Assembly (NCBI RefSeq): GCF_011516735.1
Contig: NZ_WOSX01000002.1
Span: 62,001-126,000, forward strand
Reading direction: 5' to 3'
Length of the DNA stretch: 64,000 nt
From: Acetobacter fallax
Lineage (GTDB): Bacteria > Pseudomonadota > Alphaproteobacteria > Acetobacterales > Acetobacteraceae
The notes under the pieces were generated by a model. It worked only from the letters and a program-made list of their open reading frames with translations. It ran no database searches and was not told the DNA's origin. The position numbers were made by a program, and so were the translations under genes. Shown in pieces: positions 27,176 to 44,643 of this stretch; position 1 is the first letter of the stretch, and each line of letters opens with the position of its first letter.

Positions 27176-28294
27176 ATGACTTTCCCCTTCGAGAGCCTGA
27201 AAAACAGCCTGCCGGACCTGGAGGCCGAAGCCGCAGAAAACGACCGTGACAGCAGCTTCCCCACCGCCGGCCTCGCCTGCCTGCGCGATCTCGGCGCCCT
27301 CTGCGCCCCTCTCCCAAAAACCCTCGGCGGATGCGGCTTCGGCACCGATCCCGGCGGTGGCCCCGGTCTTCTCCACCTCCTGAGACTCACAGGCGAAGGC
27401 AATCTCTCACTCGGCCGGCTTCTCGAAGGCCACATCAACGCCGTTCGCCTCATCGCCCGTTACGGAACCTCCGCCCAGCTACAAAAAGCCTCCACAGACA
27501 TCCTCGGCGGCGCCCTGTTCGGCATCTGGGTCACCGAAACCACAAACCCCGTCCACATCACGCCAGACGGAGCAACATTTCTGCTCCACGGCGAAAAAAT
27601 GTTCGCCTCCGGTGCGCTACACGTCACCCGTGCCCTCATCACAGCCGAAACGCCAGACGGCGAAACCCGTATGCTCCTCGTCCCGCTCGACGCAAATCGC
27701 AAAGCCAGCCCTGCCGTCGGCGGTCTCTGCGGCATGCGCGGCGCCGGCACCGGAAGCTGCGATTTCACCGGCATCCGGGTGGCCTCCGATGCCCTGACCG
27801 GACATCCCGGCGACTATCTCCGCCAGCCGGAATTCTCTGCCGGCGCCTGGCGCGGCATGGCCGTGGCCCTCGGCGGCATCGACCGCCTCGTCACCCTGCT
27901 GCGTGACCAGCTCGTCAGCCGCGCCCGCGACGCAAATCCGTACCAGAGAACCCGCATCGGCGAAGCGCTGATCGCACAGGAAACCGCAGCACTCTGGACC
28001 CGAAAAGCCGCCCTCGTCGCCGACGACAAAACCCTGCCACCAGGCGACGTCGCCGCCACAATCAACCTCGCCCGCATTGCCGTCGAACGCGCCGGTCTGG
28101 ATGTCATCGAACGCGTCCAGCGCAGCCTCGGCCTCTCCGCTTTCGTCAAAACCAATGTCGTGGAGCGGATCATGCGTGATCTCAGCACCTATCTTCGTCA
28201 ACCCGCTCCGGACGAAACCCTTGCTGAAGCCGCAGGCTGGTTCACACAGCGCGACCTCCCCCAGCCAGATCTCCATGTGACCCCGAAACCATGA
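27176..28294 (+). CDS. Acyl-CoA dehydrogenase-family protein, atypical
   Basis: The 372-residue protein has the acyl-CoA dehydrogenase order: helical N-terminus, beta domain around GIWVTETT...DGATFLLHGEKMFASGA, and helical C-terminus (TRIGEALIAQETAALWTRKA; LARIAVERAGLDVIERVQRS). The usual W..TEP.aGSD substrate loop reads WVTETTNPVHI, so standard acyl-CoA binding is doubtful; a different flavin-dependent oxidation or dehydrogenation is possible. The ATG at 27176 follows AGGAAG. The stop overlaps the start of the PIG-L gene (ATGA), so the three plus-strand genes are one coupled operon. Neighbouring genes suggest it modifies a glycan- or lipid-linked intermediate rather than serving beta-oxidation (inference). 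Confidence 0.82.
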   Translation: MTFPFESLKNSLPDLEAEAAENDRDSSFPTAGLACLRDLGALCAPLPKTLGGCGFGTDPGGGPGLLHLLRLTGEGNLSLGRLLEGHINAVRLIARYGTSAQLQKASTDILGGALFGIWVTETTNPVHITPDGATFLLHGEKMFASGALHVTRALITAETPDGETRMLLVPLDANRKASPAVGGLCGMRGAGTGSCDFTGIRVASDALTGHPGDYLRQPEFSAGAWRGMAVALGGIDRLVTLLRDQLVSRARDANPYQRTRIGEALIAQETAALWTRKAALVADDKTLPPGDVAATINLARIAVERAGLDVIERVQRSLGLSAFVKTNVVERIMRDLSTYLRQPAPDETLAEAAGWFTQRDLPQPDLHVTPKP

Positions 28295-29019
28295 AAGCCG
28301 GCGATATCCAGGCCGCCTTCCGCACACTGCCCTTCGCCCCGCTCTCTGATCTCTCCCCCGGCGCCGCCCTGATCCTCGCCCCGCACGCCGACGACGAAAG
28401 CCTCGGCTGCGGCGGCCTCATCGCCGCAAGCTGCGCCGCCGGACAGCCCCCCGTAGTCGTGATCATGACTGACGGAACCGGCTCACATCCAAATTCGCAG
28501 AGCTACCCTCCCCATCGCCTGCGCATTCAGCGCGAACAGGAATCCCGCAACGCCACGGCCAGCCTCGGCCTCCCCGACGATCATCTCATCTTCCTCCGCC
28601 TCCCCGACACCACCGCCCCGCATGACGGACCGGATTTCGATCACGCCGTCCACCACCTCGCAAAACTCGCCCGTGCAACAAACTGCCGCACCCTCTTCGC
28701 CCCCTGGCGCCACGATCCGCATTGCGATCATGAAGCCACCTGGAAGATGGCGTCCTCAATCAGCAACAGGATGAACATCCCGCTCCTCGCCTACCCGGTC
28801 TGGGGCTGGCTCATCCCCCCTGACCAGGATCTCGGCTGCGATGCACCCGACGGCTTCCGTCTCGACATCACGCCCCGGCAGACAGCCAAAGCCAACGCCA
28901 TCCGCCTGTATGAAAGCCAGTACGGAAACCTGATCACCGACGACCCGTCCGGGTTTCACCTCCCCGATACTCTCCTTTCGGTCTTCGATGCCCCCTTCGA
29001 AGTGTTTCTGCACCCATGA
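28291..29019 (+). CDS. PIG-L/LmbE-family N-deacetylase
   Basis: The 242-residue zinc enzyme has the PIG-L signature APHADDESLGCGGLI (zinc ligands His and Asp in HADDE) and the distal ligand in WRHDPHCDHEA. Family members deacetylate N-acetyl-glucosamine-type groups in GPI, mycothiol, bacillithiol and glycan synthesis. Here it is second in a translationally coupled operon: its ATG overlaps the upstream stop and its stop overlaps the next start, both as ATGA. Together with the methyltransferase and GT2 it suggests assembly of a modified amino-sugar compound (inference). Confidence 0.92.
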   Translation: MKAGDIQAAFRTLPFAPLSDLSPGAALILAPHADDESLGCGGLIAASCAAGQPPVVVIMTDGTGSHPNSQSYPPHRLRIQREQESRNATASLGLPDDHLIFLRLPDTTAPHDGPDFDHAVHHLAKLARATNCRTLFAPWRHDPHCDHEATWKMASSISNRMNIPLLAYPVWGWLIPPDQDLGCDAPDGFRLDITPRQTAKANAIRLYESQYGNLITDDPSGFHLPDTLLSVFDAPFEVFLHP

Positions 29020-29600
29020 CCGACGGCAGCTGGTCCCGCTCCGTCTTCGAGCAGCTTTACAAACAGAATCCCGATCCCTGGAGTTTTGAAACCAGCCCTT
29101 ATGAAAACAGCAAATATATCGCTACCCTCGCCCATGCCGGCCCCGGCCCGTTCGATTTCGCCCTTGAACTCGGCTGCTCCATCGGCGTCCTGACAGCCTC
29201 CCTCGCCCCGCGCTGCCATCACCTGCTCGCCGTCGATATCGCCGAAACCGCCCTCGCAAATGCCCGACTTCGCTGCGCCTCCCTCCCAAACGTCATATTC
29301 CATCGTGGCCAGCTCCCCGAAGAATTTCCACTTCTCGCGGAAAACTCCTGTGATCTGATCCTGATTTCAGAACTACTTTATTTTCTTTCCCCCACCGACA
29401 TCGCCCGCCTCGCGCGGCAATGCCTCGCCGTCAGAAGAACCGATGCCCCGCTCATCCTGGTCAACTGGACCGGCAAAACCGATACCCCCTGCACCGGAAA
29501 CCAGGCAGCGGAGCTGTTCATCGAAACCTGCCTGAAAAACACTACGATTTCATATTTCACAGACCGGGCCGACAGCTACCGCATCGACCGTCTCACCTGA
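29016..29600 (+). CDS. SAM-dependent methyltransferase, NodS-like
   Basis: The 194-residue protein has a class I methyltransferase fold: motif I ALELGCSIGVLTASLA near 46-61, the Asp of LLAVDIAETAL, and SCDLILISELLYFLS. The N-terminal SVFEQLYKQNPDPWSFETSPYE is the mark of NodS-type enzymes; NodS N-methylates the deacetylated amino sugar of Nod factors. Its place right after a PIG-L deacetylase fits that chemistry: deacetylate, then methylate the freed amine (inference). It overlaps the PIG-L stop by four bases and its own 3' end overlaps the convergent GT2 gene by eight. Confidence 0.9.
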   Translation: MTDGSWSRSVFEQLYKQNPDPWSFETSPYENSKYIATLAHAGPGPFDFALELGCSIGVLTASLAPRCHHLLAVDIAETALANARLRCASLPNVIFHRGQLPEEFPLLAENSCDLILISELLYFLSPTDIARLARQCLAVRRTDAPLILVNWTGKTDTPCTGNQAAELFIETCLKNTTISYFTDRADSYRIDRLT

Positions 29601-30720
29601 CCGAAACATCGTCAGCCACACACAGCGTATCAACCGGCATCATATCCCGCCTGAGCAGGTCACGCACAATCAAATCGGCCGCCGCATGATGCCAGTCCAG
29701 ATCACACCGCTTCACCGCTTCCCGCCGCAACGCAGGACTCGCTGCCTCCAGAACCTCCCAGGCCCGACCAGAATATTCCGCTTCCATCTGCGCTTTCACC
29801 ATGGCGACCGGCAACTCCAGTAATGCTGCCAGCCCGCGCACATCGCCCACCTCCGGCGCCGGCATTCCCCAAAGCGACCTCAGCCAGGCCCGGCCCCTGG
29901 CGCGGCGCAGACACAGCATCGCCGGCTCCAGCGCCTCATCCAGCATCTCGTCCTGACGCAGCATCCGGCGCGCCATTGTGTCCGCCATGCCGCCCCGCGC
30001 CCTCCCCTCCGTACGCCCTGACACCGTCACAACCACACCCGGCGCATGACGCACCGCCACATCCACCCTCCGTAACGCCGCGATAAATCCACGATCCTCA
30101 CCCAGCGGCACCCCCGGAATCCCCCCGGCCCGCGACCACGCCTCAACCGTCACGGCAATACTGGCCCCGGAATGTTCCGTATGCCTCGGCCAGGGATCGA
30201 CCGGATCAGGATCAGCCAGATCATGAATCCGATCCAGAATCGTCCCGTAAGCAACCTCCGCAACATCATCCTCATGAAGACAGGCCGGTATCGCCAGCCC
30301 CTCAACCGGATCAATCACAGCCCGGCCACAAACAGCCTCAGCCCCGCCCGCAAACGCATCAAGCGTGCGCGCCAGCCAGTCCGGCGCCACCACACCATCC
30401 GCATCAGTCGTGAAAAGAACCCCGTCCGGCCCGACAATCTCCGCCGCAATCGCCATCGCCTCCCGACGCGCCGTCCCCGCATGCGCAAGCGCCGCCGGAT
30501 ACTCCCGCTCCACAATCGTCAGCCCGAACGGCAACCCCGATGCCAGCCCTGCAGCCCGCTCCCGCGTTCCATCCGTGCAGTTGTTCAGCAGCAGAACCAC
30601 ATGATCGAAACCCGGTCCCACCTGCCCCGCAAGCCCCTGCAAACAGAGACCAATCCGGTCTTCCTCATCACGAACAGGAATGGCAACAACACGTAACGGG
30701 CGATAAAACCGGCTGGACAT
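29593..30720 (-). CDS. Glycosyltransferase family 2
   Basis: The 375-residue protein has a GT-A fold: VVAIPVRDEEDRIGLCLQGL at the N-terminus, LLLNNCTDGTRERA and the metal-binding FTTDADGVVAPDWLARTLDA (DAD), with GEDRGFIAALRRVDV later. It transfers an activated sugar; donor and acceptor are unknown. There is no membrane segment of note, so it acts in the cytoplasm. The ATG at 30720 is used; an in-frame GTG at 30732 is four codons upstream, and neither has a strong ribosome-binding site. It converges on and overlaps the NodS-like gene by eight bases, which supports a shared pathway although the strand differs. Confidence 0.88.
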   Translation of the reverse strand: MSSRFYRPLRVVAIPVRDEEDRIGLCLQGLAGQVGPGFDHVVLLLNNCTDGTRERAAGLASGLPFGLTIVEREYPAALAHAGTARREAMAIAAEIVGPDGVLFTTDADGVVAPDWLARTLDAFAGGAEAVCGRAVIDPVEGLAIPACLHEDDVAEVAYGTILDRIHDLADPDPVDPWPRHTEHSGASIAVTVEAWSRAGGIPGVPLGEDRGFIAALRRVDVAVRHAPGVVVTVSGRTEGRARGGMADTMARRMLRQDEMLDEALEPAMLCLRRARGRAWLRSLWGMPAPEVGDVRGLAALLELPVAMVKAQMEAEYSGRAWEVLEAASPALRREAVKRCDLDWHHAAADLIVRDLLRRDMMPVDTLCVADDVSVR

Positions 30721-30886
30721 GAAATGAAACACCCACGGCGAGGAATGTCTTCAACACGCCAGCCCTCCGCAAGTTGCGTAAGCCTTAACGCGCCTCCGCC
30801 AGCTTCGGTCAGACCCCGAACTTCCCGGCGACCACCCGCCACCCCGAACGTTTCCCACCACACCACGACTTCAGGATCAGCCCCCG

Positions 30887-31747: not shown

Positions 31748-32305
31748 ATGCCCGCTGACACAATCCGACATCGGCTCAGAGCCGCCACACAGCCGCGCCA
31801 CGCCATCCTCGATACACTGGTCGGCCCGCTGCAAAGCGCAAGCACATACCGAACATATCTGGCCGGCATCGCCGCCTTCCGCCTCTGCGCCGAACAGCAT
31901 CTGAACACAGCAGCATGGCCGGATATCCTGGGCTCATGGCAACCGCGGCGCCTTTCCACGCTCCTGATGCAGGATCTCCACGATCTCTCCCTCACCCCGC
32001 CAGCCCCGGATATCGTCCTGACCCCCGATACCCCGGCCCGAACCATGGGACTGCTCTACGTGCTGGAAGGATCAGCGCTCGGAGCCCGCGTGCTGGTACG
32101 CCAGGCCGCCGCCCTGGGTTTTGACAACAGCTGCGGAGCACGCCATCTCACCACCCAGGCAGGTGCCGGTTACGAATGGCAATCGTTTCTTCATTGTCTC
32201 GAACAGATACCTGATGACACTGTCGTCATAACAGCCAATGCTGCAGCTCAGACCTTCGATGCCGCCATTCTCGCTATGAGGACAGCAATCGAACTTCGTT
32301 TATAA
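31748..32305 (+). CDS. bphO: Bacteriophytochrome-associated heme oxygenase
   Basis: BphO opens heme to biliverdin, the chromophore of the phytochrome encoded nine bases downstream. The 185-residue protein has the proximal ligand His18 in TQPRHAILDTL and the flexible distal helix YVLEGSALGARVL near 105-117. Length and order fit bacterial BphO. GGGGAA lies upstream of the ATG. The tight linkage to the phytochrome means light sensing and chromophore supply are co-expressed. Confidence 0.92.
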   Translation: MPADTIRHRLRAATQPRHAILDTLVGPLQSASTYRTYLAGIAAFRLCAEQHLNTAAWPDILGSWQPRRLSTLLMQDLHDLSLTPPAPDIVLTPDTPARTMGLLYVLEGSALGARVLVRQAAALGFDNSCGARHLTTQAGAGYEWQSFLHCLEQIPDDTVVITANAAAQTFDAAILAMRTAIELRL

Positions 32306-32313
32306 AGCGCCTT

Positions 32314-34890
32314 ATGACCGACACAGACATCGAACAGGTTATTTTCGGACAGGCTGACCTGACGAGCTGCGATCGTGAGCCCATCCACATCCCGGCCAGC
32401 ATCCAGCCCGCCGGATGCGTGATGGCCTTTTCAGACACCGACCACCGTCTCATAAGATTCTCGGACAACGCCCCGGCCTCCATGGACGTGCCATCGCTGC
32501 GTCTGGGAATGTCCATCGAAGACTGCGTCGGTCCGGCAGCAGCAGCCACGATTCTCGCCCTGGCCGCCAGCGAAACCTTCGGACCGCCCGCCATCAGTTT
32601 CGATGTCGAATTTCCCCTTAACCAGCATCGGGATATCGCGGTTCACCACCGGGCGTCGAACGTGGTCGTGGAATTCGAAGCCATCACCCCCGTCAGACTG
32701 CACGCCAGCCTGGCCGCGCAGCAACGCGCGGCCGTGGAGCGCCTGCGTAACCCGTCCGATACCACAACGCTGCTGCGGGATGCCGCCATAACCTTACGCC
32801 AGACCTTCGGTTACGACCGCGTCATGGTCTACCGGTTCGCCCCGGACTGGTCCGGCCAGGTCATCGTCGAAGACCGAAGAGACGGACTGGAAAGCTTCCT
32901 CGGACAGCACTTCCCCGGCAGCGACATTCCGGCCCAGGCCCGCGAGCTGTACAAACGCTCCCTGATCCGCGTCATCTGTGATGCGACTTACCAGCCCGTC
33001 GCCCTGACCGAAGAACCCGGCCTGCCCCCGCTGGACATGTCATTCATGCACCTGCGCGCCGTCTCCCCCATTCATTGCGAATACCTGACGAATATGGGCG
33101 TCCGCGCCTCCATGTCCGTCTCCCTGATCGTCGATGGCGAACTCTGGGGACTGATCGCCTGTCACCATTACAACCCCCGCCCCCTGTTCATGGCCGAACG
33201 CATCGCCGCCAAAATGATCGGGGAATTCATCTCCCTGCAGATCGTGGCGCTCAACCGGTCCCGCCGCCTCAGCCTGACACAGGCCGCACACCATTTTCTT
33301 TCCCGTCTCCTCCGTGACGCTACCGGCACAAACGGATTGGCGCACTACGCCCGGTCACACCTGCCAGACCTCCTGAAAATCGTGCCCTGCGACGGCGGAG
33401 GCATCTGGACAGACCAGAAATGGTCCGCAACAGGCCTCACTCTTCCGGAAACAGACATCAGGAAGCTACTGTCCCTGACCGGAACAGTCGCCAGAAACCA
33501 GATCTGGCACAGTGACTGCCTGACAAGAGACTGCCCCGATCTCGCGCTCTCTCTGCCCGACATTTCCGGAGCCATCATCATCCCCGTCTGGCCGGAACAG
33601 GATGACTGCCTCATCCTGTTCCGGCGGGAAATCATCCAGACCGTGGTATGGGGCGGCGACCCCGCCAAAACCTACAGCACCGGCCCCCACGGCGCCCGCC
33701 TGACCCCGCGACGCAGCTTCGAGATATGGACCGAAGAAGTCCGGCATCACTCAGCCCACTGGAGCGATGACGATCTCGAACTCGCAGCCCTGTTTCGTTC
33801 CGCGCTGATGGAAGTCGCCGCACGATCCAGCCAGCGGAAACTGCTGGAGCGCATCCAGGCGGAATCCACACAGCGCATGCTGAACGACGAACTGAATCAT
33901 CGTGTCAAAAACCTTCTGGCCGTTGTGCAGTCGCTCGTCTCCCGGGTGCCCGCCGTGCAGGACAGCGCAACCGACTACCGGAACACGCTCCAGGGACGCA
34001 TCCGCGCTCTCGCAAACGCCCATGACCTGGCCGTCGGCGCGGAAGCCGGAACATCCCTGCATGATCTCCTGACAACTGACCTCGCCCCGTACAACTCCAG
34101 CAAAGGCCAGATCACCCTGACAGGCCCCCACATCCGGCTGACAGAACGGGCGGTGACATTCCTCGCGCTCCTGTTCCATGAACTGACAACCAATGCCGTC
34201 AAATACGGCGCCCTGTCAGTCCCGTCAGGACAACTCGCCGTCACATGGGAGCACGCCGGCCTCGCCGGCACATGCACCATCCACTGGCAGGAACGTAACG
34301 GCCCCGTGGTCAGCCCCCCGGAACGATCCGGATTCGGAAGCCTGCTGATCGAACGCGCCATCCGCCACGATCTGAAAGGAACGGCAACCCGAAGCTTCAA
34401 TCCGGACGGCGTGACAGTGGTTGTCTGCCTGCCGGCCTCCACCATTATCGATCAGCCCCCTGCCGGAGAGCACAAGCCCGAACAGAAAAAGGACAGGCTC
34501 CGGACAGGACAGATCCCGTTCAACGCCCTGAAAGGCCGAAATATTCTTGTTCTGGAAGATGAGTTCCTTGTCGCAATGGATCTGGAGGAAACACTTCAGT
34601 CCGAAAACGCGGCGACCGTCTGTGTCGCCCCCACCATCCAGGCCGCTCTCACTATCCTGAAAACCCACCCGATCGATCTCGCCATCCTCGACGTCAATGT
34701 CGATGGCGAAACCTCTCTGCCCGTCGCATATCTCCTGACAGAACGCGCCATTCCGTTCCTGTTCGCAACAGGCTATGGAAAAGGAACCTCCGTGACAGAC
34801 GCATTTCCCGCTGCTCCCGTCATAGAAAAACCATACGCAACGACAGAAGCCGTCACAGCTCTCTCCCTGCTGGCAAACCAGGAACCCTGA
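32314..34890 (+). CDS. bphP: Bacteriophytochrome with HWE histidine kinase and receiver domain
   Basis: An 858-residue hybrid red/far-red light sensor. Order: PAS-like domain with biliverdin-attaching Cys19 (LTSCDREPIHIP), GAF about 150-310 (FPGSDIPAQARELY and HLRAVSPIHCEYLTNMGV), PHY about 320-500 with the tongue motif PRRSFEIW, HWE-type kinase about 520-720 (phospho-acceptor ELNHRVKNLLAVVQSL, FHELTTNAVKYGALS, HWQERNGP, GFGSLLIERAI) and a C-terminal receiver about 735-850 with AILDVNVDG. Phospho-relay from the kinase His to the receiver Asp is expected, with an unknown final output. It is cytoplasmic and follows bphO in one operon. Confidence 0.95.
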   Translation: MTDTDIEQVIFGQADLTSCDREPIHIPASIQPAGCVMAFSDTDHRLIRFSDNAPASMDVPSLRLGMSIEDCVGPAAAATILALAASETFGPPAISFDVEFPLNQHRDIAVHHRASNVVVEFEAITPVRLHASLAAQQRAAVERLRNPSDTTTLLRDAAITLRQTFGYDRVMVYRFAPDWSGQVIVEDRRDGLESFLGQHFPGSDIPAQARELYKRSLIRVICDATYQPVALTEEPGLPPLDMSFMHLRAVSPIHCEYLTNMGVRASMSVSLIVDGELWGLIACHHYNPRPLFMAERIAAKMIGEFISLQIVALNRSRRLSLTQAAHHFLSRLLRDATGTNGLAHYARSHLPDLLKIVPCDGGGIWTDQKWSATGLTLPETDIRKLLSLTGTVARNQIWHSDCLTRDCPDLALSLPDISGAIIIPVWPEQDDCLILFRREIIQTVVWGGDPAKTYSTGPHGARLTPRRSFEIWTEEVRHHSAHWSDDDLELAALFRSALMEVAARSSQRKLLERIQAESTQRMLNDELNHRVKNLLAVVQSLVSRVPAVQDSATDYRNTLQGRIRALANAHDLAVGAEAGTSLHDLLTTDLAPYNSSKGQITLTGPHIRLTERAVTFLALLFHELTTNAVKYGALSVPSGQLAVTWEHAGLAGTCTIHWQERNGPVVSPPERSGFGSLLIERAIRHDLKGTATRSFNPDGVTVVVCLPASTIIDQPPAGEHKPEQKKDRLRTGQIPFNALKGRNILVLEDEFLVAMDLEETLQSENAATVCVAPTIQAALTILKTHPIDLAILDVNVDGETSLPVAYLLTERAIPFLFATGYGKGTSVTDAFPAAPVIEKPYATTEAVTALSLLANQEP

Positions 34891-41655: not shown

Positions 41656-44643
41656 ATGTCCTCCACACCCGGCACCGCCACGGATTCCCGCGCTCTCATC
41701 CTCTCCTCAGGCCTGTTCGATCCCGACTGGTACCGCGCCCGCCTCCCGGAACACGAACGCAACACCCCCGATCCGCTCACGCATTTCCTGACCGAAGGCA
41801 CAAAACGCTGCCTCGCCCCAGGCCCCCTCTTCGATACAAAACGCTATTTCGAGTGCTACTGGAATCTCGAACCCGGCACGCTCAACGCCCTCCTGCACTA
41901 CCTCGAACACGGCCTCACCCAGGGCCAGCACATCGACGGCATCTGCGACACCAGCCTCCACGGCGGCACCGGCCCGGTCATCCCCACACAACTCCGCCCC
42001 CTGCCCGATAACGCCCCCAAAACCGCCATCACCATCCACGCCACACGCCTGAGCCCCCTCGATCCCATCCTCGACAGACTCACACATTTTCCCGATCGCT
42101 TTACCCTGCTCATCACCACGGACACCTCCGAAAAACGCCACCGGATCGAAGAGCGCCTCACTCGCGCAAACCTCAACGCCGCCCCCGTCCTCGTCCGGGT
42201 CGCAGAGCTGCGCGACGGCTCTTTCGGCCCGATCCTCACCACCTTCAGCACCGCCCTGCGCAGCCATGACCTGATCCTGCACCTGCACACAGACGCCACC
42301 CCCAAAGCCCTCGCCCGCCTCCTGCCCACCGCCCCCGGCGCACTCGCCGGACTTCTCACCCGCTTCACAGATGACCCGAAAACCGGCCTCATCCAGCCCG
42401 CACCGGATCCAAAAACTCCTTACTGGCACTACACCTGGCTCGCGAACCAGCACCTCGCTCACCCTTATCTCTCCCGCCTGAACCTTCCCGCCCCGGCCGG
42501 CTATTTCAGCCACCCGCCCGAGGGCCTGTTCTGGGCCACCACCCACGCCCTCGCCCCCCTGCTCGACATCCCCTGGACACCAGCGGATTTCCCGCCGGAC
42601 GACGCGCCTCCTCCCACCCCGGAAAACGGAACATTCCCTGACGCCTTCATTAGAATCCTCAACCCCGTCATCCGCTCCCAGGGCTGCCATATCGATGAAT
42701 ATGACCCCGATGCCGGCCTGATCCGCGTCGGCTGGTCCTGCATGAATCTCGATCAGTACGAACGCCGCTCACAAAGAGATCTGCTCGCCGCCATTCGCGA
42801 AGCCCGCACCGTTTCATTCGACCTGTTCGACACCCTCCTCACCCGCATCGCACTCACCCCCGACACCATCCATTATGACGTCGCCAGCCGGCTCGCTCAC
42901 CGCTTCCCAACCCTCACGCCTTCTCCGCGAGCGTTCTTCACCCTTCGCAAACAGGCCGAACAGAACGCCAGAGAAACCCGCGCCTGGACCGATGATGTCG
43001 GACTCGACGACATCTACGCCGCCCTCCGCACCCTCACCGGCTGGCCAGCGGAAGCCCTCGCCACAGCCCGAACGCTCGAAGTCGAAATCGACCGGAACGT
43101 CCTCCGCCCCCGCCCCGAAATCATCACCGCCCTGCGCTACGCCCGCGAACGGGGTTGCCGCACCCTGCTCATCAGCGACACCTGTCTCAGCCGCGACGAC
43201 ATCGCCCCCGTCCTCGACCGCACCGGCATCACTCCCCTGCTCGACGAAATCTACCTCTCCTCCGAACGCCTCGCCCGCAAGGATCGCGGCGATATGTGGG
43301 ATCTCATCCGCGCCGCCGAAGATACTGCCACCCTCCTGCATGTCGGCGATAACGAACACGCCGACATCCAGCGCACCACCGACCTCGGAATCAGAAATTT
43401 CCACGTCCTGTCCGGCCTCAACATGCTCCGCCTCAACCCCGTCGGCCCCGCTGTCGCCACCGTCGTCACACCCGCCGCGATCCCCCCGGGCCAGAGCGCC
43501 GAAAAACGCCGCCTCTCCGGCGACATTCTGCTCGGCCCGCTCGTCAGCAACCTCTTCACCTCGCCCTTCGCCAGCACCCCGAACCAGCGCCTGACCACCG
43601 CCCGCACGCTCACAACGCCGGAACAGGCCGGCCACATCCTCTTCGGCCCTCTCCTCCTCGCCTTCATGGCACAGCTCATCACCCACCCCGCCACACAGCG
43701 GATCGAAAAATTCCTTTTCGTGTCAAGGGAAGGTTATTTTCTCTCGCGCCTCTACAAAGACCTCCGCGAAACATACGACCTGCCGATCCCCGACGCCCTG
43801 CACTTCCACTGCTCGCGCCGCGTCGCCATCAGCGCCGCTCAGGTCACCCATTTTGATCCGGATATTCTCGCCATCAGCGGCGATGGCTTTCGCGGCTCCA
43901 TGGCCCGCCTCCTCACCGCCCGCCTGGGCGTTGAAATCGCAGCACACAGCCCGCTTCACGATATCGACGTCGCCCTTCCGGAAGATCGCGATACCGTCCG
44001 CAACCTCACCATTCTCCTGAAAGACGACATCCTCGCCCAGGCCCGCATATCGCGCGAAGCCCTCATCGCCTATGCCCGCGCCTGCGGCCTCACGCCCGGC
44101 ACAGACACAAAAACCCGTCACGGTATCGTCGATGTCGGTTACGGCGCCACCATCCAGCGCCACATGCAAACCACGTTAAACCTGCCCCTCACCGGCTTCT
44201 ACATGGCTGCCGAAACACAGTGCGCCGCCGCCGAACACTCCGGCGGCACCGCCTTCGGCCTCCTCGCATCCGGCCCAGACGCCGAAACCTTCCGACGCCA
44301 GCACGGCCTTTTCGTCGAAGCCGTCCTCACGGCTCCTCACGGACAGACTATCGGCTACGACACCGGCGTCACCCCGCCCCGCCCCGTCTTCGCCAGGGAC
44401 AGTCGTACAACACAGGATTTCACCACACTCGAAACCCTCTTCAGCGGCATCAGCAGCTATTGCCACGACATCATCCGCTCGTATGGCCCGGAAGTCCTGC
44501 ACAGTCTCCAGGCCGTCACCCCCGCCAGCACAGCCCTGCTCACCGCGCTGTCCGAAAACCGCCTCACCCTCGCCCCGGAAATCATGAAAGCCCTCAGCGT
44601 CGAAGACGAATTCTGCGGCCGGGGCCAGATCCGTTTCGCCTGA
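41656..44643 (+). CDS. RgpF-like polysaccharide protein fused to a HAD domain
   Basis: A 995-residue multi-domain protein. Residues about 120-350 match the rhamnan synthesis F (RgpF, PF05045) region: ITIHATRLSPLDPILDRLTH, LLITTDTSEK, HDLILHLHTDATP, with WLANQHLAHPYLSRL. Residues about 390-600 are a HAD domain: SFDLFDTLLTR (motif I), LLISDTCLSRDDI, ARKDRGD and HVGDNEHADIQRT. Residues 620-995 contain FVSREGYFLSRLYKDL and VDVGYGATIQRHM, a C-terminal module that often follows HAD domains in capsule or LPS loci. The N-terminal SGLFDPDWYRARLPEH...DPLTHFLTEG block is seen in glycan-assembly proteins. A role in O-antigen or capsule assembly is inferred. No sugar-nucleotide genes are adjacent. Confidence 0.85.
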   Translation: MSSTPGTATDSRALILSSGLFDPDWYRARLPEHERNTPDPLTHFLTEGTKRCLAPGPLFDTKRYFECYWNLEPGTLNALLHYLEHGLTQGQHIDGICDTSLHGGTGPVIPTQLRPLPDNAPKTAITIHATRLSPLDPILDRLTHFPDRFTLLITTDTSEKRHRIEERLTRANLNAAPVLVRVAELRDGSFGPILTTFSTALRSHDLILHLHTDATPKALARLLPTAPGALAGLLTRFTDDPKTGLIQPAPDPKTPYWHYTWLANQHLAHPYLSRLNLPAPAGYFSHPPEGLFWATTHALAPLLDIPWTPADFPPDDAPPPTPENGTFPDAFIRILNPVIRSQGCHIDEYDPDAGLIRVGWSCMNLDQYERRSQRDLLAAIREARTVSFDLFDTLLTRIALTPDTIHYDVASRLAHRFPTLTPSPRAFFTLRKQAEQNARETRAWTDDVGLDDIYAALRTLTGWPAEALATARTLEVEIDRNVLRPRPEIITALRYARERGCRTLLISDTCLSRDDIAPVLDRTGITPLLDEIYLSSERLARKDRGDMWDLIRAAEDTATLLHVGDNEHADIQRTTDLGIRNFHVLSGLNMLRLNPVGPAVATVVTPAAIPPGQSAEKRRLSGDILLGPLVSNLFTSPFASTPNQRLTTARTLTTPEQAGHILFGPLLLAFMAQLITHPATQRIEKFLFVSREGYFLSRLYKDLRETYDLPIPDALHFHCSRRVAISAAQVTHFDPDILAISGDGFRGSMARLLTARLGVEIAAHSPLHDIDVALPEDRDTVRNLTILLKDDILAQARISREALIAYARACGLTPGTDTKTRHGIVDVGYGATIQRHMQTTLNLPLTGFYMAAETQCAAAEHSGGTAFGLLASGPDAETFRRQHGLFVEAVLTAPHGQTIGYDTGVTPPRPVFARDSRTTQDFTTLETLFSGISSYCHDIIRSYGPEVLHSLQAVTPASTALLTALSENRLTLAPEIMKALSVEDEFCGRGQIRFA

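Follow-up and report, generated by a model that had tools for sequence, protein, structure and literature searches.

Described relatives and the layout of the locus

In the mycothiol and bacillithiol routes, glycosyl transfer by MshA or BshA (both GT4 glycosyltransferases) is followed by deacetylation by a PIG-L enzyme and then by modification of the freed amine, and the same logic can be recognized in the subject of this analysis, a four-gene module of Acetobacter fallax lying within a 64,000-nucleotide stretch of its genome (positions 62,001 to 126,000 of the forward strand of contig NZ_WOSX01000002.1, RefSeq assembly GCF_011516735.1; hereafter the window, in whose own numbering its positions are given). 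The module encodes a flavoprotein of the acyl-CoA dehydrogenase fold, a PIG-L family de-N-acetylase, a NodS-like S-adenosylmethionine (SAM)-dependent methyltransferase and a GT2 glycosyltransferase, and it differs from the thiol routes in having GT2 instead of GT4, in methylation standing in for thiol ligation, and in a PIG-L protein whose similarity to bacillithiol BshB1 is weak (45.7 bits, below the cut-off of 182.5). The nod operon is a second relative, as the methyltransferase falls within the NodS Pfam family and a deacetylated amino sugar would be its likely methyl acceptor, whereas the NodS equivalog cut-off is far from being reached (64 vs 300 bits), the deacetylase belongs to PIG-L and not to the NodB-type chitin deacetylases, and the set includes a flavoprotein. 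The third, the SfnB/DszC/KijD3 class of flavin monooxygenases, shares with the module flavoprotein the fold and the absence of the catalytic glutamate, whereas the module contains no flavin reductase and its flavoprotein has invariant residues of its own. The same four annotations are, finally, carried by ACICU_02432-02435 of Acinetobacter baumannii (glycosyltransferase, SAM-dependent methyltransferase, LmbE protein and acyl-CoA-dehydrogenase-related protein, under one operon mark in Table 2 of PMC5660220), which, however, are presented there as an expression-table entry without a proposed function. No paper characterizing the module was among those listed by capped searches of an open-access library, a coverage outside which subscription papers mostly fall.

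The initial annotation had assigned the four genes to positions 27176-30720, and both gene content and coordinates proved correct against the open reading frame (ORF) list and Pfam, as did the overlaps it described. The flavoprotein gene (27176..28294, + strand, ATG start, 372 amino acids), the PIG-L gene (28291..29019, + strand, 242 amino acids) and the methyltransferase gene (29016..29600, + strand, 194 amino acids) are joined by two ATGA junctions (28291-28294 and 29016-29019), and the last of them overlaps by 8 bases (29593-29600) the convergent GT2 gene (29593..30720, - strand), which starts with an ATG at 30720, an alternative GTG start at 30732 being likewise open. Among 93 loci containing the flavoprotein, PIG-L and methyltransferase genes, an overlap of -4 (start codons chosen by script) was seen at the flavoprotein/PIG-L junction in 62 and at the PIG-L/methyltransferase junction in 74, and such recurrence makes the ATGA arrangement more than chance. 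The host genome behaves as one of the Acetobacteraceae; in the best 80 of 459 flavoprotein relatives, Acetobacter musti (75% identity) and A. oeni (74%) supply the nearest ones. The single PIG-L match in the whole A. fallax genome is the module copy.

Co-occurrence of the four genes across phyla

It is near certain that the four genes represent a real, old and conserved module. A search with the PIG-L protein in 100 Acetobacteraceae genomes gave matches in 36 of them (source genome included), and of the 37 PIG-L places outside the source genome 36 were analyzed, the omitted one being a 517-base contig end; the flavoprotein was found at 27/36 of these loci and all four genes at 25/36. A flavoprotein alignment scanned against 84,980 species genomes yielded 459 confirmed relatives, and at the best 80 loci, which were the ones examined, all four genes were present in 64, PIG-L in 65 and the methyltransferase in 72, while 40 control loci gave no match to any of the four family profiles at 1e-20. 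The initial annotation had made its grouping depend on conserved co-occurrence in other genomes, and the counts from these two samples support the view that the four genes belong together. Some loci were counted twice under different labels (e.g., L027 = L080 and L035 = L119), and the module counts are, therefore, not independent of one another.

At E 1e-25, the flavoprotein was also found in at least 30 of 398 phylum genomes (a lower bound, with at most five candidates scored per genome), and a sample of 20 of those 30 loci contained the flavoprotein and the methyltransferase in 20/20 cases each, PIG-L in 18/20 (one of the 18 matches being weak, at 34 bits) and GT2 in 17/20; some of these loci come from Pseudomonas-like genomes, which we take to be Pseudomonas. 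Plasmid records with the module include those of Komagataeibacter, Bradyrhizobium, Paracoccus, Sulfitobacter, Novosphingobium, Sphingobium, Sphingomonas and Roseivivax, as well as Comamonas, Pandoraea, Acinetobacter, Legionella lytica, Nostoc and Kitasatospora, and all four genes were seen in loci of Acinetobacter, Deinococcus gobiensis, Nostoc and Kitasatospora, whereas GT2 was not found at the D. radiodurans locus and was not detected at a Roseomonas plasmid locus otherwise carrying the module. Four gene arrangements were distinguished among the 93 loci mentioned above (66, 15, 3 and 3 loci, with GT2 missing in 6), a variation in order suggesting that the linkage is maintained by selection and is not that of one frozen block.

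A split version seems to exist in the Methylobacterium group, in which ten loci have a cytochrome b561 gene (PF01292) after the flavoprotein and no PIG-L alongside, the methyltransferase being present in two of the ten (L117 and L141) and absent from eight; an eleventh cytochrome b561 match (L118) is a weak one at a distance of 9 kb. In 6/6 of the Methylobacterium-group genomes tested, a PIG-L relative of 56-67% identity was found elsewhere (in one of them with an internal stop codon), and in two genomes the dispersed PIG-L adjoins a methyltransferase, which indicates that parts of the module stay in the genome after the cluster breaks. In two Methylobacterium loci, a stand-alone LigD-like fragment overlaps the called flavoprotein start (L141:9387-9905 and L145:9408-9923).

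The flavoprotein and its partner enzymes

The flavoprotein scored below the cut-off of all four Pfam acyl-CoA dehydrogenase domain models (22.7/22.9, 20.5/22.7, 19.3/22.4 and 18.6/33.3 bits), as would be expected of a divergent member of that fold, and its AlphaFold2 model (mean predicted local distance difference test score, pLDDT, of 94.9) could be superimposed on medium-chain and short-chain acyl-CoA dehydrogenases (MCAD and SCAD) with Z 39 over ~350 residues. The top Foldseek match was the DszC flavin monooxygenase 3x0y (E 6.8e-16, 22% identity), with short-chain acyl-CoA dehydrogenases close behind, and VIA-align gave a tie (Z 39.5 to a flavin monooxygenase vs 39.3 to a dehydrogenase). 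The initial description of the protein as acyl-CoA-dehydrogenase-like thus stands for the fold, whereas more than the substrate loop, to which the change had been ascribed, is altered, both known catalytic-base positions being lost in 151/151 sequences.

The residue survey behind this count covered 151 rows (142 distinct), i.e., 150 loci and the window. The shortened loop WVTETTNPVHI (27527..27559, + strand), which had been pointed out initially and is real, replaces the TExxAGSD-type loop of acyl-CoA dehydrogenases that serves flavin adenine dinucleotide (FAD) and CoA; an AGSD-type loop was found in 0/151 module flavoproteins, whereas dehydrogenases of the same genome have AGSD (L197 and L198) or CGTD (L199) there, and YEGT in all three. 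The reference positions for the catalytic bases were presumed to be E376 of MCAD and E254 of isovaleryl-CoA dehydrogenase (IVD), and no acid was seen in 151 rows at either the MCAD-type position (P 116, S 17, A 11, others 7) or the IVD-type one (W 122, A 13, L 7, others 9). In the window, the former corresponds to P343 within the RDLSTYLRQPAPD motif (28175..28213, + strand), and in an alignment with the own-genome dehydrogenases and SfnB the module flavoproteins are marked by RDLxTYLRQPxPD-like stretches in addition to the shortened loop. Invariant in 151/151 rows, on the other hand, are E84, H86, W118, K141 and Q342, the first two forming an E-x-H pair (codons of E84-G85-H86 at 27425..27433, + strand).

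In a maximum-likelihood tree of 26 rows, DszC not being among them, 15 module proteins were split from SfnB and the dehydrogenases with 100/100 support, albeit with long branches (wrong-frame reference ORFs L207-L209, L211, L213 and L215 were left out, as was L205, the same gene as L200). With the loop and both catalytic-glutamate positions lost and a clade of its own, the flavoprotein is, judging from its residues, very unlikely to function as an acyl-CoA dehydrogenase. Monooxygenase chemistry may be proposed instead: as in DszC, a KxFxSGA-type motif replaces the KxW(I)(T/S)N of dehydrogenases, and H86 is aligned with a histidine common to DszC and TdsC. The protein is, however, neither SfnB (43.9 bits vs an NCBIfam cut-off of 430.9, besides the separate clade) nor DszC (28.3 vs 850 bits).

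The D. radiodurans flavoprotein (L025:6726-9065) is fused to an N-terminal region of ~400 residues, for which no PDB match at 1e-6 was found and the best Pfam match, GH53 at 0.054, is very weak; a glycoside-hydrolase-like barrel there is conjectural, and the gene at L065:6705-9053 is similar in length.

The three partner proteins all exceed their Pfam cut-offs (PIG-L 82.9/28.2, NodS 54.8/24 and GT2 38.5/23.3 bits). The profile of the PIG-L protein picked up diacetylchitobiose deacetylases as well as a deacetylase of the BshB type, and the protein has both family motifs intact, PHADDE (28381..28398, + strand; PHxDDE in 20/20 aligned rows) and DPHCDH (28714..28731, + strand; DPHxDH in 20/20). 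The methyltransferase has the SAM-binding motif ELGCSIG (29166..29186, + strand), and the PDB matches of its profile (the methyltransferase 4isc at E 2e-34, NodS at 1e-25 and plant phosphoethanolamine N-methyltransferases at 2e-20) favor amine methylation, so that a deacetylase followed by an amine N-methyltransferase is the most natural reading of the pair. GT2 is a GT-A enzyme (model pLDDT 92.9; Z up to 21.9 to the fucosyltransferase WrtF) with a DAD (DxD) metal/nucleotide-sugar motif (30397..30405, - strand) invariant in 35/35 sequences; its identification as the hopanoid glycosyltransferase HpnB was tried and rejected (30 vs 379.25 bits). A defense system was likewise rejected, PADLOC having returned a generic methyltransferase match alone (mad2, 42 bits).

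A second PIG-L gene stands just downstream of the module in Pseudomonas-like loci (L178:6077-6835, L179:10512-11228 and L181:11160-11879), and in the first two of them its first motif reads PHPGDE and not PHPDDE, by which the protein may be inactive or altered.

Stress-gene neighborhood and the proposed pathway

Genes of the tre, mal, glg, ots, Ku and LigD types were found near 21/119 module loci and 0/40 control loci (Fisher p 0.0022, uncorrected for relatedness, with repeats and close relatives among the 119), namely near 15/99 loci with flavoprotein, PIG-L and methyltransferase in L022-L146 and 6/20 in the phylum sample; near the PIG-L-alone loci, the tested stress genes were found in 0/9 cases. 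The controls were 17-kb loci at round-number positions of our choosing in 16 genomes, partially overlapping with the module genomes, and the Ku, LigD, TreY and GlgX queries scored above curated cut-offs, with OtsA just short (548.3 of 564.85). Three Pseudomonas-like loci read treZ-malQ-treY-DUF2934-glgX and then directly the module (treZ being cut by the locus end, and L179 being without GT2), L189 reads Ku-LigD-module followed by glgX, DUF2934 and treY on the opposite strand, and at L185 an OtsA-like gene is immediately upstream. At Acetobacter loci L098, L100 and L113, treY is present and in two cases is accompanied by treZ and glgX, two Comamonas plasmids carry OtsA-flavoprotein-PIG-L-methyltransferase-GT-OtsB in one run, and Legionella lytica has otsB-GH65-PIG-L-methyltransferase-GT2-flavoprotein. 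The 19 annotated plasmid module loci contain catalase in 8 (a count standing without a matched control), Ku or LigD in 3 and trehalose genes in 4.

Published data on A. baumannii, a record of which (L277) also contains the module by profile, point in the same direction. ACICU_02432-02435 were down 31- to 62-fold in two colistin-dependent mutants, and trehalose-6-phosphate synthase and phosphatase (otsA/otsB) were down in the same table (Lee et al. 2017, PMC5660220), where ACICU_02436, numbered next to the operon, is a hypothetical protein with parent values of 24,596 and 92,265 reads per kilobase per million mapped reads and a >130-fold drop in both mutants. For the blue-light sensor BlsA, PMC9948694 gives LmbE, glycosyl transferase and methyltransferase as gene neighbors, KatE as co-expressed and OtsB as co-occurring. 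A BLUF protein (PF04940) is encoded downstream of the module in A. baumannii (L277:12671-13162), and one is annotated ~6 kb from it in Bradyrhizobium (L024:1583-2014). Farrow et al. 2018 (PMC6181384) connect BfmR of A. baumannii with KatE and with survival of drying, and the BfmR-controlled desiccation factors are, according to those authors, incompletely found; the terms LmbE, PIG-L, glycosyl and acyl-CoA are absent from the main text of that paper. The Sphingomonas EcfG regulon table lists EcfG-regulated glycosyltransferases and Ku (PMC6599016), and, the main text containing neither "acyl-coa" nor "deacetylase", is no evidence for the module; the P. syringae trehalose work deleted PSPTO3125-3130, glgA to glgX (PMC8982409), and no paper was found on the locus tags that follow; the P. 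aeruginosa treYZ operon, as given in PMC3591346, consists of six genes without the module; and none of the module-related terms looked for in PMC5967708 and PMC8084333 is present there.

A link between the module and stress survival is, on this evidence, likely. In the reading preferred here, the probability of which we would put at about 0.4, the module is a short cytoplasmic pathway to an N-methylated amino-sugar glycoside within a stationary-phase, osmotic, desiccation or oxidative stress program, alongside trehalose and catalase. GT2 would transfer an N-acetylated hexosamine from a nucleotide sugar to a small or glucan-type acceptor; PIG-L, going by its family and intact motifs, would remove the N-acetyl group; the flavoprotein, devoid of the dehydrogenase base, would oxidize the product at a nitrogen or a carbon, in the manner of a flavin monooxygenase; and the NodS-like enzyme, given its kinship with NodS and the phosphoethanolamine methyltransferases, would methylate the freed amine. 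Taken by itself, this specific chemistry (the N-methylated amino-sugar glycoside reached via a monooxygenase-like step) is tentative. It is also possible, if rather doubtful, that a whole undescribed stress metabolite operon is being looked at, its product an N-methylated, possibly betaine-like or N-oxidized amino-sugar glycoside deployed with trehalose, catalase and end-joining repair in Pseudomonadota, Deinococcota, Cyanobacteriota and Actinomycetota. The acyl-CoA dehydrogenase fold would then have a new catalytic branch that builds this product, with the E-x-H pair replacing the lost glutamate. The means by which many environmental bacteria, and Acinetobacter as well, withstand drying and starvation are incompletely explained, and a four-gene pathway recurring, often on plasmids, in several phyla in the vicinity of genes for trehalose, catalase and end joining offers a direct, testable lead. 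If the stress-glycoside reading is true, the flavoprotein would represent new chemistry on a well-studied enzyme fold; public records (e.g., that of the Komagataeibacter plasmid) give its genes the label acyl-CoA dehydrogenase and the methyltransferase the label "nodulation".

Several points weigh against the stress-glycoside reading: 98/119 module loci are without any tested stress gene nearby, and in the 64-kb window itself the stress queries (catalase not among them) match nothing; 9/36 Acetobacteraceae PIG-L relatives occur without the other genes (two of them with a distant dehydrogenase relative nearby); the co-regulation in A. baumannii stems from colistin-dependent mutants with a wide regulatory upset and not from a stress experiment; the structure scores do not separate a monooxygenase from a dehydrogenase; electrons from the flavoprotein may go to the membrane and not to oxygen, as the ten Methylobacterium-group loci with cytochrome b561 suggest; and the fold match of GT2 reveals neither its donor nor its acceptor.

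Of the alternatives, decoration of a glycan or lipid that the cell already has (a surface glycan, trehalose lipid or alpha-glucan) and not synthesis of a free small molecule, with GT2 adding a GlcNAc-type residue and the other three enzymes trimming, oxidizing and methylating it, is unlikely, yet it finds some backing in the neighborhoods: at four sphingomonad loci, three glycosyltransferase genes immediately precede the other three module genes (one of the preceding ones being the GT2 profile match) and a fourth follows them, a further glycosyltransferase and UDP-galactopyranose mutase adjoin the D. gobiensis module, three Pseudomonas-like loci lie inside an alpha-glucan operon, and RND efflux genes are near a few loci (L066, L075, L077 and L081, and Roseomonas L260). 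The core module of the Komagataeibacter plasmid, however, has no extra glycosyltransferase alongside, and, despite RND, MFS-like and TolC-like clusters having been noticed near some loci, exporter-type genes (five queries) showed no enrichment near the module (15/119 loci vs 6/40 controls), and export as part of the module was rejected. The small secreted or membrane-linked glycolipid suggested initially finds no support on the same count, nor in a Kyte-Doolittle scan of the four proteins, in which no 19-residue segment exceeded 1.6.

Quite improbable is a degradative pathway for an N-methylated amino sugar, in which the flavoprotein would genuinely act as a dehydrogenase or oxidase, taking an unusual non-CoA substrate and passing electrons to the membrane cytochrome b561; the ten Methylobacterium-group loci do make electron exchange with the membrane possible, but the cytochrome is confined to one branch among the loci seen, GT2 and SAM methyltransferases are usually biosynthetic, and co-regulation with trehalose synthesis suits making over breaking. 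A Nod-factor-like glycolipid with an amino-sugar backbone, deacetylated, N-methylated, acylated and exported as a signal, would account for PIG-L, NodS-like and GT2 genes standing together and for the NodS structures matched by the methyltransferase, but is very improbable for a module that misses the NodS equivalog cut-off, has shown no acyltransferase or exporter as part of it and occurs with stress genes in non-nodulating phyla. Of the analogy drawn initially, the methylation chemistry survives and the pathway as a whole does not. The gene tables of the 19 annotated plasmid stretches, incomplete as they are, list no NodA-like acyltransferase (a GNAT acetyltransferase appears in two of them), and a NodA search (PF02474) of the A. 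fallax genome gave no match, control genomes being equally silent.

As for regulation, a sigma-EcfG-type motif (GGAAC-N15/18-[CG]GTT) was found upstream of 8/117 flavoprotein genes against ~2 expected (L029 and L093 being the same genome) and near the likely operon start in 2/11 plasmid loci (L066 and L262; ten alphaproteobacterial loci and one of Nostoc were scanned), and none precedes the window's four genes; sigma-EcfG as a common regulator is suggestive and is not used as proof. Between 26900 and 31000 of the window, a sigma-70 promoter scan returned 0 sites, and terminator-like sites numbered 4 vs 3.1 in shuffled sequence. Beyond the module, positions 31748-34890 carry a heme oxygenase match that is weak and under its cut-off, with a phytochrome containing an HWE kinase domain after it, which adds a light sensor to the BLUF proteins seen near the module elsewhere, and positions 41656-44640 encode a 995-residue protein combining a rhamnan synthesis (RgpF) match with a haloacid-dehalogenase-like one.

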